A stretch of 42,337 nt of DNA from Methyloversatilis sp. (GTDB lineage Bacteria; Pseudomonadota; Gammaproteobacteria; Burkholderiales; Rhodocyclaceae), in contig NZ_JAUYNV010000049.1 in NCBI RefSeq assembly GCF_030698125.1, positions 1-42,337 of the forward strand, read 5' to 3'. A program made the translations under genes and the position numbers. Positions 3,899-22,326 of the stretch are shown here, one piece after another; position 1 is the first letter of the stretch; each line of letters starts with the position of its first letter. The notes beneath the pieces were generated by a model. It was not told where the DNA came from, made no database searches, and worked only from the letters and a program-made list of their open reading frames with translations.

Positions 3899-4833
3899 CA
3901 CTGTGTCGTGCTGCTGTCTGCCGACGCGGCCTTGGTGGTGTTGTTGGACAAGCCCCACACATAGGCAGTCAGCAGATGGATCTTGTGCTCGCCGAGCAAT
4001 TCACCGTGCGCCGGCATGTGGCCATTGCGACCCCGTGCGACGCTCTGTGCAACGATCGCTTCGGTGCTGCCGTATAGCCACACGCCGTCGGTCAGGTTGG
4101 GCGCACCCATGGCCTGATTGCCGCGACCTTCCGCGCCGTGGCATGCCGCACAGTTGGCAGCAAACACCGGTTTGCCGCGCTGCACCCGCAGGTTGTCGGC
4201 AGTCAGGCCCGACAGTGAGCGCACGTAATGCACCACGTCACGCTGCGCTTCCGAATCGAGCACGGCGGAGAACGCCGGCATCATGGCGTTGCGGCCATTG
4301 ACCAGCGTTTCCTTGATGGCTTCCGGATCGCCGCCATACAGCCAGTCGCTGTCGACCAGGTTCGGAAAGCCGCGCGAGCCGCGCGCGTCGGTGCCGTGAC
4401 ACTGCGCACAGTTGTTCAGGTACAGGCGCTCGCCCATGGCGCGCGCCTCCGGATCGGCGGCAACCTGCATGGCGTCCATCTTCGAATAGCGCTCGAACAG
4501 CGGCGCCACCTTTGCGTCGGCCACGCTCACTTCGCGCTCGTAGGCATTGACCGAGGTCCATCCCAGCTTGCCGCCGAAACGGCCCAGGCCCGGGTAGGCG
4601 ATCAGATAGACGATGGCGAAGACGATGGTGATCCAGAACAGCCACACCCACCAGCGCGGCAGCGGGTTGTTCCACTCGGCCAGTGTTTCGTCCCACTGGT
4701 GACCATGCAACTCGACCGTACCGGTCGGCCGCGCACCACGATTGGACAGGATGATGAAGGCACAGAACACCAGGCTGGCGATGACGAGCACCACCACATA
4801 GACGTTCCAGAAATCGCTGATGAAGTCGCTCAC
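3898..4833 (-). CDS. ccoP: Cytochrome c oxidase cbb3-type subunit III, CcoP
   Basis: This 311-residue diheme cytochrome c passes electrons to CcoO/CcoN. It has two N-terminal membrane helices (about 8-30 and 60-80) joined by the conserved segment HQWDETLAEWNNPLPRWW, then two cytochrome c domains with CAQCH (142-146) and CAACH (228-232). Axial methionines are offered by RNAMMPAF and NGHMPAHG. The start is a GTG (4831-4833) overlapping the ccoQ stop codon as GTGA, which implies translational coupling. The 3' end overlaps ccoG. Length and domain order match typical proteobacterial CcoP. Confidence 0.96.
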   Translation of the reverse strand: MSDFISDFWNVYVVVLVIASLVFCAFIILSNRGARPTGTVELHGHQWDETLAEWNNPLPRWWVWLFWITIVFAIVYLIAYPGLGRFGGKLGWTSVNAYEREVSVADAKVAPLFERYSKMDAMQVAADPEARAMGERLYLNNCAQCHGTDARGSRGFPNLVDSDWLYGGDPEAIKETLVNGRNAMMPAFSAVLDSEAQRDVVHYVRSLSGLTADNLRVQRGKPVFAANCAACHGAEGRGNQAMGAPNLTDGVWLYGSTEAIVAQSVARGRNGHMPAHGELLGEHKIHLLTAYVWGLSNNTTKAASADSSTTQ

Positions 4834-18750: not shown

Positions 18751-18777
18751 GTTGGGCATCGCTTCGCTCACCCCAAC
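18751..18777 (-). repeat. Inverted copy of the 27-bp palindromic core
   Basis: This 27-base stretch is the reverse complement of the core found three times downstream (18883-18909, 18999-19025, 19117-19143), with one mismatch. The core is itself an imperfect palindrome with arms GTTGGG and CCCAAC. The inverted and direct copies could pair in RNA from rho read-through. Confidence 0.8.
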
Positions 18778-18797
18778 CTACGAAACTCCCGTACCCT

Positions 18798-19170
18798 CCC
18801 GTCCAGCCGCGCCACCCCTTACTCCGGCAAACACCCGCCGTTGCGCTCACCACCGTGCAGCCGCCACCGATCCAGAACGTGGGTTGGGGTGAGCGCAGCG
18901 ATGCCCAACAACACCCGTCAAGCCGCACCACCCCTTGCTCCGGCGATCACCCGCCGTTGCGCTCATCACCGTGCAGCCGCCACCGATCCAGAACGTAGGT
19001 TGGGGTGAGCGCAGCGATGCCCAACAACACCCGTCCAGCCGCGCCACCCCTTACTCTCCGGCGATCACCCGCCGTTGCGCTCATCACCGTGCAGCCGCCA
19101 CCGATCCAGAACGTAGGTTGGGGTGAGCGCAGCGATGCCCAACAACACCCGTCCAGCCGCGGCGCCCCTT
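18798..19170 (+). repeat. Tandem repeat, three units of 116-118 bp plus a partial fourth
   Basis: Units start at 18798, 18914 and 19030, each with the sequence CCCGTCCAGCCGC or a one-base variant; a partial fourth starts at 19148. Lengths are 116, 116 and 118 bases. Each unit carries one 27-base REP-like palindrome (18883-18909, 18999-19025, 19117-19143). The unit length is not a multiple of three, so small open frames here are not genes. Confidence 0.88.
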
Positions 19171-19414
19171 ACGCCGTGCCGCCCTGGTGAGCTTCTCGCC
19201 CAGCGGCGCAAGTTCCGTTCGAAGCCTTGCCGCGGTCACGGCGGCCGTCGTCCGCTGCCTCAGTCCTGACCGATGCGATTCCGTTCTCGGTGGACGCACA
19301 CGTCTTGTACATTTCGCTCTGCAGCAAGGACGGGGCATCGGTGCCGAGCAGCGTGAAGTGGAATTCGTCGATTGCAGCCTCCTTGAACTGAAACTTCGGC
19401 CTTTTCCGTTCCAC
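19169..19414 (-). pseudogene. Degraded DUF1508 (YegP-like) small protein gene
   Basis: The open frame of 81 codons starts with GTG (19412-19414). Its first 65 residues or so fit one DUF1508 repeat: KFQFKEAAIDEFHFTLL, then LQSEMYKTCASTENGIASVR and KASNG, matching the family pattern F-x-F...SE-x-Y-x(n)-ENGIASV...ASNG. After KASNG the frame loses similarity, while the neighbouring frame reads LAPLGEKLTRAARRK, which could be the start of a second repeat, so a frameshift is likely. No good Shine-Dalgarno sequence precedes the GTG. YegP-like proteins are small cytosolic proteins of unknown role. The gene sits against the tandem repeats, whose fourth unit may have replaced its 3' end. A functional single-repeat protein cannot be ruled out. 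Confidence 0.55.
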
Positions 19415-19465: not shown

Positions 19466-19505
19466 CGAAGAAAAGAGGGGCGCCGGCCTTCCGGCACGGC
19501 GCCCC
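19466..19505 (-). terminator. Terminator after the ytfE-norB unit
   Basis: GGGGCGCCG (19477-19485) and CGGCGCCCC (19497-19505) form a 9-bp stem with an 11-base loop. On the minus strand it is followed by TCTTTTCTTC. It ends the minus-strand transcript that carries ytfE and the norB remnant. Confidence 0.75.
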
Positions 19506-19553: not shown

Positions 19554-19953
19554 TCATCGACGGGCCCCTGCCAGCGCACTGACCGGCTGCGGCGCACGGC
19601 CGGCGCGGCCGAACACACCGGACACCACTTGCCAGGCCACCGCCAGCGAGCCGACGATGAACGCCACATCGCCGAAGGTGCGCACCCAGCGCAGCGCTTC
19701 GAGCAGCGGCTGCTGCATGAACGCTTCGCGGCGCGCGTACGACAGGCCCTGGCTGACGCTGGCGTGGAACTGGATCAGGCCGATCGGCAGCAGGCTGGTG
19801 GCGATCATCAGCACCAGCCCCGCGCGGCCGTCTTCCCTGACATCTGCTGCGGTATCGGCGGCGCGTTGCGATACACCTCGACGCCGAAGTAGCCGAGCAG
19901 CGAAAAGGTGACGATGAGCACGCCGATCAACGTGAACGACGTCTTTCGGCAAA
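19554..19953 (-). pseudogene. norB: norB remnant: N- and C-terminal ends of a quinol-type nitric oxide reductase, interior lost
   Basis: Two pieces of a qNorB-like protein lie side by side in different frames. The N-terminal piece (about 19940 down to 19840) reads TLIGVLIVTFSLLGYFGVEV and YRNAPPIPQQ, the first membrane helix and periplasmic start of quinol NO reductases; its frame hits a stop at 19808-19810. The C-terminal piece (about 19825 to 19554) reads GLVLMIATSLLPIGLIQFH, then FMQQPLLEALRWVRTFGDVA, the last two helices of the family. An intact qNorB has roughly 750 residues, so about 600 codons including all metal ligands are missing. No normal start codon is visible in the N-terminal frame. 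It follows ytfE at once and is under the same sigma-54/NorR control region. A sequencing or assembly collapse is possible but would need an exact loss. Confidence 0.75.
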
Positions 19954-20646
19954 TTACCGGTGAGTGGTCTCCGCCTCGACTGGTGCCGCATTCAGCCCTT
20001 CGAACAAAATGTTGTTCTCGAGGTGAATGTGCTCCATCAGATCTTCGCGCAGCGCCGCCAGACCAGTGTAGAGCGCGCGCCAGGTGTTGCAGGCACCGCG
20101 CGGCAGCGTGATGTCGTCGGTCAGGGCTTCCAGCCGCTGCAACGCTTCGCCGTGCTGGTCGTGCTCGTTGCGCAGCACCGTGACCGGCCCCTGCACCGCG
20201 GCAGCATGGCTGCGGGCGAGCATCGGGAACAGCACCTGCTCTTCCTTCTGCATATGGCTTTCCAGCTCATGCTGCATCACCGTCAGGTGGTCGGCCAGAC
20301 CGGTCGGGCAGTCCGGCCGGTCACCGTGCACCTGCTCGACCCTGCGCGCCAGTCGAACCAATTCCGGTAGCTGTTCGCGGTGGCGATCGTGGAAGCGGAA
20401 CAGGATGTGTTCGATCAGCGTGGCTGCCGGCACCGAGCGCCAGTCGCGCGCCTCCCGCGTCGCCTGCGAAAGCAGTGCGCCCAGGCGTTCGACGATGGGT
20501 TGAGGGTCGATGCCCCGCTCGGCCGCGGCGTCCTGCAGGCTGTGCTTGCCGCCGCAGCAGAAATCCAGTTTGTGTTCGTGGAACACCTGTGTGGCACCCG
20601 GAATGCTGCGCGCCAGCGCACCAAGGGATTGGTCGATCAGGTTCAT
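19954..20646 (-). CDS. ytfE: Iron-sulfur cluster repair di-iron protein, RIC/YtfE/ScdA
   Basis: This 230-residue protein repairs Fe-S clusters damaged by nitric oxide or peroxide. The N-terminal ScdA domain has the pattern HEHKLDFCCGGKHSLQDAA. The hemerythrin-like domain provides iron ligands in IEHILFRFHDRHREQLPEL, MQHELESHMQKEEQVLFPML, RNEHDQHGEAL and LMEHIHLENNILFE. It is divergent from norR. A sigma-54 element lies 37 bases upstream of its ATG and three NorR-type sites beyond that, so NO induction is very likely. Pairing of this gene with norB and norR is a known arrangement (dnrN/ytfE). GAGG stands nine bases before the ATG. Confidence 0.95.
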   Translation of the reverse strand: MNLIDQSLGALARSIPGATQVFHEHKLDFCCGGKHSLQDAAAERGIDPQPIVERLGALLSQATREARDWRSVPAATLIEHILFRFHDRHREQLPELVRLARRVEQVHGDRPDCPTGLADHLTVMQHELESHMQKEEQVLFPMLARSHAAAVQGPVTVLRNEHDQHGEALQRLEALTDDITLPRGACNTWRALYTGLAALREDLMEHIHLENNILFEGLNAAPVEAETTHR

Positions 20647-20682
20647 GGCGAAGACCTCGTGGGGAAGAAGACGCCTTCACTT

Positions 20683-20698
20683 CGCAAGGTCCGGGCCA
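20683..20698 (-). promoter_or_regulatory. Sigma-54 promoter of ytfE(-norB)
   Basis: On the minus strand TGGCCCGGACCTTGCG has GG and GC exactly ten bases apart, matching TGGCAC-N5-TTGC except for A to C at one position. The start point would be near 20672, about 26 bases before the ytfE ATG. The sites for the sigma-54 activator NorR lie 40-100 bases upstream. Confidence 0.8.
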
Positions 20699-20739
20699 TG
20701 CATCCGGATCAAATAAAATCAATGGCCTATGGAAACTGA

Positions 20740-20796
20740 GGTATTTTCCACCCTCAAATGAACTGGTATTTAGAACCACAGAGGGTCGCTTTCACC
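20740..20796. promoter_or_regulatory. Three NorR-type enhancer sites GGT-N7-ACC
   Basis: GGT-ATTTTCC-ACC (20740-20752), GGT-ATTTAGA-ACC (20765-20777) and GGT-CGCTTTC-ACC (20784-20796) are three copies of the palindromic core known for NorR. The last one ends at the base before the norR ATG, so NorR may also repress its own gene. Confidence 0.8.
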
Positions 20797-22326
20797 ATGA
20801 TGGGATCGCTGCTGCTTGCCGACCTGGTGTCGGAACTGCCGCCCGCCGTGCGCCTGCAGCGCCTGGTATCGAGCCTGCGCGCCCACTTCGGCTGTGGCGC
20901 GGTCGCGCTGCTGAAGCTGGAAGAGGACAGCCTGCGCCCGCTGGCGGTCGACGGCCTGGTGCGCGAAACGCTGGGCCGGCGTTTCGTCGTCGCGCAACAC
21001 CCGCGGCTGGCAACCATCCTGTCGCGGCGCGACATCACCGCCTTCGACCACGACAGTGCGCTGCCCGACCCCTATGACGGCCTGCTCGACACCCGCGTCG
21101 GCGAACCGATTCCGGTGCACGACTGCATGGGCACCAGCCTGCAGGTCGAAGGCCAGACCTGGGGGGCGCTGACGCTGGACGCGCTGCAGACCGGCACCTT
21201 CACCGCGGCGGCGCGCGACGACCTGCGCCGCCTGACCTTGCTGGTCGAAGCCGCCGTGCGCGTGACCCGGCTGGAGCAGGATCTGCACGCGCTGCGCCTG
21301 TCGCGTGGCGGCGAAACGGCCGACGCACAAGGTGCCAGTGCGGATGACGCCGAAATCGTCGGGCACAGCGAAGTGATACAGCGCCTGCTGCACGAAATGA
21401 AGGTGGTGGCCGATTCGGAACTGTCGGTGCTGCTGCTCGGCGAAACCGGCGTGGGCAAGGAGTTGTTTGCCCGCCACCTGCACCGTCATTCGCGCCGCGC
21501 CGCGCAACCGCTGATACATGTCAATTGCGCCGCGCTGCCCGAATCGCTGGCCGAAAGCGAGCTGTTCGGCCATGTGAAAGGCGCGTTTTCCGGCGCCACC
21601 GCCGACCGGCCCGGCCGCTTCGAAGCAGCCGATGGCGGCACGCTGTTTCTCGACGAGGTCGGCGAGCTGCCGCTGACCGTGCAGGCCAAGCTGCTGCGCG
21701 CGCTGCAGAACGGCGAAATCCAGCGCCTGGGCGCCGACCAACCGCGACGCGTCGACGTACGCGTGATCGCCGCGACCAACCGCACGCTGCGCGACAGCGT
21801 GCGCGACGGCGCCTTCCGGGCCGACCTGTATCACCGGTTGTCGGTCTATCCGGTGCCGATACCGCCGTTGCGCGAGCGCGGCAGCGACGTGCTCCTGCTG
21901 GCCGGCCGCTTTCTCGAACTGAACCGCGCCCGTCTCGGCCTGCGCAGCCTGCGCCTGTCGCCGGAGGCGGAAGACGCGCTGTGCCGCTACCCGTGGCCGG
22001 GCAATGTGCGCGAACTCGAACACGTGATCAGCCGAGCCGCGCTGAAAGCGGTGAGCCGGGGCGCCGTGCGCACCGACATCGTGTCGCTGCCGGCCGAACT
22101 GCTCGATCTGGACGGCCTGACCACCCCTGCGGCAACGCCGCCGACCTGCGACGCGGCATCCGGCGCCATACTGCCGTCCATGCGTGAAGCCATCGATGCC
22201 ACACAGCGCCGGCTGGTCCGCGCCGCGCTCGATGCCTGTGCCGGCAACTGGGCCGACGCGGCGCGCCGGCTGGATGTCGACCCGAGCAATCTGCACAAGC
22301 TGGCGCGCCGCCTCGGACTCAAATGA
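20797..22326 (+). CDS. norR: NorR, nitric-oxide-responsive sigma-54 activator
   Basis: This 509-residue regulator has an N-terminal GAF domain (about residues 15-165) that in NorR holds a non-heme iron sensing NO, an AAA+ domain (about 185-420) with Walker [16 protein letters not shown] and Walker [13 protein letters not shown], and a C-terminal Fis-type helix-turn-helix ([20 protein letters not shown]). The sigma-54 contact loop reads GAFSGA, not the usual GAFTGA. I place the start at the ATG 20797 ([20 protein letters not shown]): similarity to NorR begins there, and the three NorR sites occupy 20740-20796. An upstream start at 20758 would put two sites inside the gene. It is divergent from ytfE-norB, its expected target. 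Confidence 0.93.

Follow-up and report, generated by a model that had tools for sequence, protein, structure and literature searches.

The window, meaning the whole stretch of DNA analysed here, is a complete contig (C30) of 42,337 bp from the genome of a methylotroph, Methyloversatilis sp. (G000; 4.2 Mb in 58 contigs). It carries norR on the plus strand, divergent from ytfE on the minus strand, and behind ytfE the remnants of norB, the gene of a quinol-type NO reductase (qNOR). The features of this locus and of a second locus on contig C24 are collected in Table 1. The closest named NorR locus belongs to a Methyloversatilis MAG and shares 94% NorR identity.

Table 1. Features of the norR-ytfE locus (positions in the window) and of the norQCBD operon (positions in locus L145 of contig C24)
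Feature	Position	Strand	Basis or remark
norR, NO-sensing sigma-54 activator	20797-22326	+	NCBIfam NF003451 NorR, 715.8 bits (cut-off 476)
NorR-type box 1, GGTGAAAGCGACC	20784-20796	-	pattern GGT-N7-ACC
NorR-type box 2, GGTTCTAAATACC	20765-20777	-	pattern GGT-N7-ACC
NorR-type box 3, GGTGGAAAATACC	20740-20752	-	pattern GGT-N7-ACC
sigma-54 -24/-12 element, TGGCCCGGACCTTGC	20684-20698	-	alignable in 12/12 genus loci
ytfE (norA), di-iron Fe-S repair protein, intact	19954-20646	-	NF008221 YtfE, 340.7 bits (cut-off 254)
mechanical ORF, 145 aa	19554-19991	-	spans both norB remnants; first helix out of frame
lost norB start codon	19959-19961	-	ACC; alignment to relatives
norB remnant 1	19838-19948	-	residues 5-41 (first helix), 86%, E 1.4e-13 vs G003 NorB
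deletion junction	19822-19826	-	1878 bp of norB gone, at about 19824
norB remnant 2	19557-19826	-	residues 672-761 (last helices), 89%, E 9e-46 vs G003 NorB
terminator-like hairpin and T tract	19480-19497	-	scan: 1 found, shuffles mean 1.4
norQ	L145 770-1651		CbbQ_C domain
norC	L145 1678-2124		full-length alignment to 3o0r NorC (1e-60); CIGCH motif
norB (cNOR)	L145 2157-3560		450 residues aligned with cNOR 3o0r, E 1e-223
norD	L145 3633-5471		named from its place in the operon and from tblastn similarity to genes of other cNOR loci

The conserved part of the locus and the lesions in norB

NorR, YtfE, three GT-N7-AC boxes and a sigma-54 element were all found on C30. Both proteins passed the cut-offs of their families, and YtfE matched the YtfE structure 5fnn at 6e-66. 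The mechanical reading frame of norR opens at 20758, and the start seen in most relatives corresponds to the ATG at 20797. The boxes at 20796, 20777 and 20752 (minus strand) are spaced by 19 and 25 bp. A sequence-only reading of this DNA had stated that NorR, its sites, the sigma-54 promoter and ytfE remain, which our data support. Our genus comparison comprised G000 and 12 other Methyloversatilis genomes (13 in all). ytfE with an adjoining norR was present in 12 of the 13, and the box triplet between the two genes in 10 of the 11 other genomes with the locus, G008 showing a relaxed form only. G002 was alone in lacking a match to ytfE, qNorB or cNorB. A second, more distant ytfE (52%) was seen on a small contig of G004 (G004:C18, L050). 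The promoter layout is known, since Rodionov et al. 2005 (PMC1274295) describe the same arrangement, with three GT-N7-AC boxes in tandem and a promoter of the sigma-54 type, for targets of NorR, among them the norAB genes of Ralstonia eutropha.

Purifying selection continues to act on both norR and ytfE. Between G000 and its nearest relative, G003, dN/dS was 0.055 for norR (dS 0.199) and 0.074 for ytfE (dS 0.264). Four pairs of norB-carrying relatives gave 0.062-0.092 and 0.110-0.127, respectively. Over all relatives, dN/dS of the G000 genes ranged from 0.055 to 0.315 for norR (11 relatives) and from 0.074 to 0.316 for ytfE (10 relatives; G010 is absent because the start pattern gave no ytfE ORF there), with the top value in both cases against G005.

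The norB gene of G000 is a pseudogene. Since NCBIfam at E 1e-10 named no qNorB, cNorB or NirS-like protein, comparison with PDB structures was used for these enzymes. The reference was the intact 761-aa NorB of G003, which aligned to solved qNOR structures across residues 1-761 and contained both qNOR domains, the cytochrome-c-like domain and the COX1-like core. On C30, matches to this protein are confined to residues 5-41 and 672-761, so that norB is indeed reduced to its two ends as first described; the remaining listed match in G000, at 27%, belongs to another enzyme, encoded on contig C24. The kinship of the fragments with qNorB is confirmed by the match of the 145-aa ORF to solved qNORs at 2e-26. 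A Pfam search of this ORF returned no domain, and no full-length chain of cytochrome-c-like domain plus COX1-like core was found at this norB.

The gene is broken in four ways, by a deletion, two single-base indels and the loss of the start codon. In BLAST coordinates the flanks of the deletion lie 1878 bp farther apart in 7 of the 8 norB-positive relatives and 1875 bp farther apart in G006. The loss had been put at about 600 codons and is refined here to 626, and being a whole number of codons the large deletion keeps the frame. The two frames noticed before are both present, but they stem from the two indels and not from the deletion: a single extra base directly after the ytfE stop codon, which is preserved in G000, ahead of remnant 1, and a single base lost after remnant 1, 18 bp before the junction. 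Because the +1 and -1 indels cancel, the 145-aa ORF runs through. The norB ATG overlaps the end of ytfE in all 8 relatives. According to the alignment the lost residues include the histidine motifs, presumably the heme/FeB ligands, and to this extent the claim that the metal ligands are gone is upheld. The terminator that was said to remain exists as a terminator-like hairpin, but its occurrence is not above chance.

G000 is a draft genome, and an assembly collapse or sub-clone artefact at 19824 would leave an intact norB in the living strain. We consider this very improbable, because the lost start codon and the two indels are located away from the junction, and repeats are lacking at the breakpoints. 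Even with an erroneous junction, these three lesions would leave the gene broken. The longest word common to the breakpoint regions was 7-8 bp (four relatives), the large neighbouring genes are open, and the missing norB segment was not found in any other part of the assembly, whose completeness score is 99.98%. Overlap at the junction was none against G003 by script and at most 2 bp when other relatives were compared by eye.

The cancelling indels and a deletion length divisible by three, which leave the ORF open, might also be read as a sign that selection maintains a novel small membrane protein controlled by the NorR promoter. We consider this very unlikely, as the first helix is out of frame, the true start is lost, and the remnant shows W to S and S to R substitutions where 8 relatives do not vary. 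The dN/dS of the C-terminal remnant was 0.20-0.31, compared with 0.08-0.37 among intact genes, and does not discriminate.

Across the genus, qNorB is intact in 8 of the 13 genomes including G003, a remnant in G000, and absent from G002, G005, G008 and G009. In the NorR protein tree G000 and G003 are sisters (support 99/98) in a group of five genomes (100/99), of which the four besides G000 keep an intact norB; these two inner branches, the only ones starred as well supported, are those used here. The norB loss is therefore most simply placed on the G000 branch, and norB is probably a recent pseudogene of this lineage. In G009 (L049, 4744-5189) norB seems cleanly absent, and a match to positions 19269-19398 of the window lies about 320 bp past the ytfE match.

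A second NO reductase operon and its promoter

G000 carries a complete cytochrome-c-type NO reductase (cNOR) operon, norQCBD, on contig C24. NorB and NorC are homologous to 3o0r, a heme-c motif is present in NorC, and norQ and norD accompany them, although the Pfam and NCBIfam searches of NorD gave no match at the thresholds used. By eye, the histidine motifs of cNorB are conserved relative to 3o0r. The loss of all NO reduction in the cell was considered and rejected, as the cNOR genes are present.

Elsewhere in the genus, cNORs were found in G008 and G009 (68%) and, in divergent form, in G003 (43%), and in the remaining nine genomes the cNorB query matched at most their qNorB or weaker. In G003, G011 and G012, the gene that comes next after pckG, less than 200 bp away, is dnaJ to judge from its sequence. 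In G000, pckG (an NCBIfam name) is followed by repeats and norQCBD, which therefore looks inserted after pckG; as C24 starts 769 bp before norQ, the insertion is known from one side. Similar-looking repeats, of the TTGGGCATCGC...CTCACCCCAACCTACG type, occur at 18770-19190 of the window and at L145 1-450, near the norB remnant and the cNOR operon, respectively. A collection of 317 plasmid records contained no donor, its best cNorB reaching 70.6%. A nitrite reductase of its own as NO source of the strain was rejected, since G000 yielded no full-length NirS-like match and only NirK matches below the cut-off. Full-length cytochrome-cd1-like matches within the genus were limited to G008 and G009.

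Upstream of norQ lie three boxes at L145 581 (GGT-N7-ACC), 600 (AGT-N7-ACC) and 626 (GGT-N7-ACC), followed by a sigma-54 element, TGGCCCGCTTCCTGC, at 678. Their spacing of 19 and 26 bp, against 19 and 25 bp at ytfE, together with the -24/-12 element reproduces the layout of the NorR regulon. The middle box departs from GGT, which counts against the predicted NorR control. The triplet was absent from 20,000 full-length dinucleotide shuffles and from 20,000 mononucleotide shuffles of this region. In the window and 237 loci (1.94 Mb, many overlapping), triplets were found at norR-ytfE, at norQCBD, at a site on contig C15 and at a dnr-like gene in two Pseudomonas loci only, and 65 loci (L238-L302; 536,879 bases, some overlapping) contained none. 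The full triplet is far more specific than a pattern of one box plus a -24/-12 element, which had 14 matches in G000, including the norQ, ytfE and C15 sites, against 1 for the reversed-pattern control.

The triplet on C15 (L223 4287, 4268 and 4243, minus strand) has a spacing of 19 and 25 bp and a sigma-54-like element, TGGCCGGATTCTTGC, at L223 4189, the whole module covering 4175-4287. A pqqA-like peptide is encoded about 330 bp downstream of it, and a radical SAM/SPASM protein, which is PqqE-like, farther downstream; the genes thus resemble a pqq cluster. The domains come from a domain search. A protein of 1045 aa with GAF-PAS-GGDEF-EAL domains and another with a DGC domain are encoded nearby, the latter resembling, by eye, a DGC-like sequence ahead of norQ in locus L281 of another genome (G424). 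The C15 boxes were covered by none among the matches listed in the other 12 Methyloversatilis genomes. Since this triplet adjoins a pqq-like cluster and a GAF/PAS protein, triplets may not always mean NorR: either NorR would have a third target here, or triplets can serve another activator.

Comparison with other cNOR loci and known NorR systems

A search of 200 genomes at the level of the order gave, G000 aside, 35 genomes whose cNorB match reached E 1e-150 or better. Loci were taken from 34 of these (G185 was left out) and from G008 and G009; one locus without norC (L268) was dropped, and 35 were scored. In 30 of the 35, the 350 bp ahead of norC contained an FNR/DNR-type box (TTGAY-N4-RTCAA), against 0.03 hits expected by chance for this set (mononucleotide shuffle); two GGT-N7-ACC boxes occurred in this stretch in none of the 35. 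At the level of the class, 54 of 369 genomes besides G000 matched at 1e-200. Twenty of them were taken and scored together with 2 of the 317 plasmid records; the box was present in 17 of these 22 loci and the triplet in none. Both sets joined gave 47 of 57 with an FNR/DNR-type box and 0 of 57 with an upstream triplet. The divergent cNOR of G003 (L148), outside this count, had neither. In G211 (L262) a NorR-like match (46%) directly precedes norC; this locus has an FNR/DNR-type box but lacks the triplet. In G000 no such box was found in the 350 bp upstream of norQ or across 14 kb of the norQCBD locus; a near miss upstream of norQ, TTGAT-N6-ATCAA, falls outside the N4 pattern used.

These results bear on the proposal of the sequence-only reading that the cell may have made a repair-only operon of a NO-reducing one. 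As a statement on the operon it stands, as the C30 operon itself no longer encodes a NO reductase; for the cell, the search for another NO reductase speaks against it, because norQCBD with a NorR-box layout was found on C24. In a narrower form, the NorR regulon would serve YtfE alone and the cNOR would be regulated otherwise or be silent. A precedent is Ralstonia solanacearum, where norA is reported as the sole NorR target (PMC9045102). We judge this possibility unlikely, since the region upstream of norQCBD has three boxes and a sigma-54 element and no FNR/DNR-type box. The norB of R. solanacearum has a predicted NsrR site, whereas in G000 the other type of NO reductase has NorR-type boxes.

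The C30 locus is of a known kind with a broken member. In Ralstonia eutropha (Cupriavidus necator) the gene order is presumably norA/ytfE-norB, with a NorB of quinol type. As in G000, this species has three GT-N7-AC boxes and a sigma-54 promoter, from which NorR activates norAB (PMC1274295). In contrast, the norB of G000 is broken, and a NorR-type promoter stands before a cNOR operon at another place in the genome. The norR-ytfE locus of Stutzerimonas stutzeri (L053) shares the box triplet with G000 and gave no qNorB match in 12 kb; unlike G000, it gave no norB-remnant match at the threshold used. The cNorB closest to that of G000 (78%) was found in G424 (L281), a relative at the level of the class, whose norQCBD has the same gene order; that locus contains no NorR triplet, only scattered single GT-N7-AC matches upstream of norQ.

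Two Pseudomonas loci (L055 and L058), outside the count of 57, resemble G000 in combining NorR and cNOR (about 70% cNorB identity), which lie there in one neighbourhood. Their norC is preceded by an FNR/DNR-type box, and a second triplet (L055 5166, L058 5162) faces a Crp/Fnr-type gene next to norCBD, called dnr-like from its sequence, whereas in G000 the triplet faces norQCBD. This suggests a putative cascade from NorR to DNR to norCBD in these Pseudomonas loci.

In the open literature searched, which mostly leaves out subscription papers, no report was found of a NorR-controlled cNOR or of the norB loss in G000.

Probable exchange of the NO reductase

Most likely, the NO reductase was exchanged inside one NorR regulon and NO reduction was not given up. 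A swap rather than a loss is suggested because norQCBD is full-length and has the same NorR-box layout upstream. The best explanation for the data as a whole, to which we assign a probability of about 0.75, is that norB became a pseudogene while NorR and YtfE were kept, and that NO reduction passed to norQCBD. NorR binding, transcription and enzyme function at these loci are predictions from homology and promoter layout. NO would bind NorR, and NorR at the triplets would activate sigma-54 polymerase at ytfE and, as predicted, at norQCBD, so that NO sensed via NorR would switch on both together. YtfE proteins repair iron centres and cNORs reduce NO to N2O; here YtfE would repair NO-damaged iron centres and the cNOR would remove NO as N2O, and the old qNorB may have become dispensable and decayed. 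We infer that qNorB could be lost because a cNOR had been gained, in whichever order the two events took place. G003, which keeps its qNorB alongside a different kind of cNOR, counts against this explanation. The idea that qNOR and cNOR strictly exclude each other in the genus was rejected, because the two occur together in G003 and are both missing from G002 and G005.

In its widest form, the idea would be that the NorR regulon survived the loss of its original NO reductase and took over a cNOR, and that the sensor may reach the pqq-like cluster as well; to this we give even odds. If true, NO would directly switch on a respiratory-type cNOR, and an enzyme of denitrification would become one of detoxification, in a strain for which neither a full-length nirS nor an above-cut-off nirK was found.

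The apparent recent replacement of one type of NO reductase by another, with the sensor and the repair gene under selection throughout, bears on how genes for NO detoxification and denitrification are rewired. It yields a specific and easily tested prediction, a cNOR controlled by sigma-54 and NorR. The loss of norB at a single locus need not mean that the capacity to form N2O is lost.
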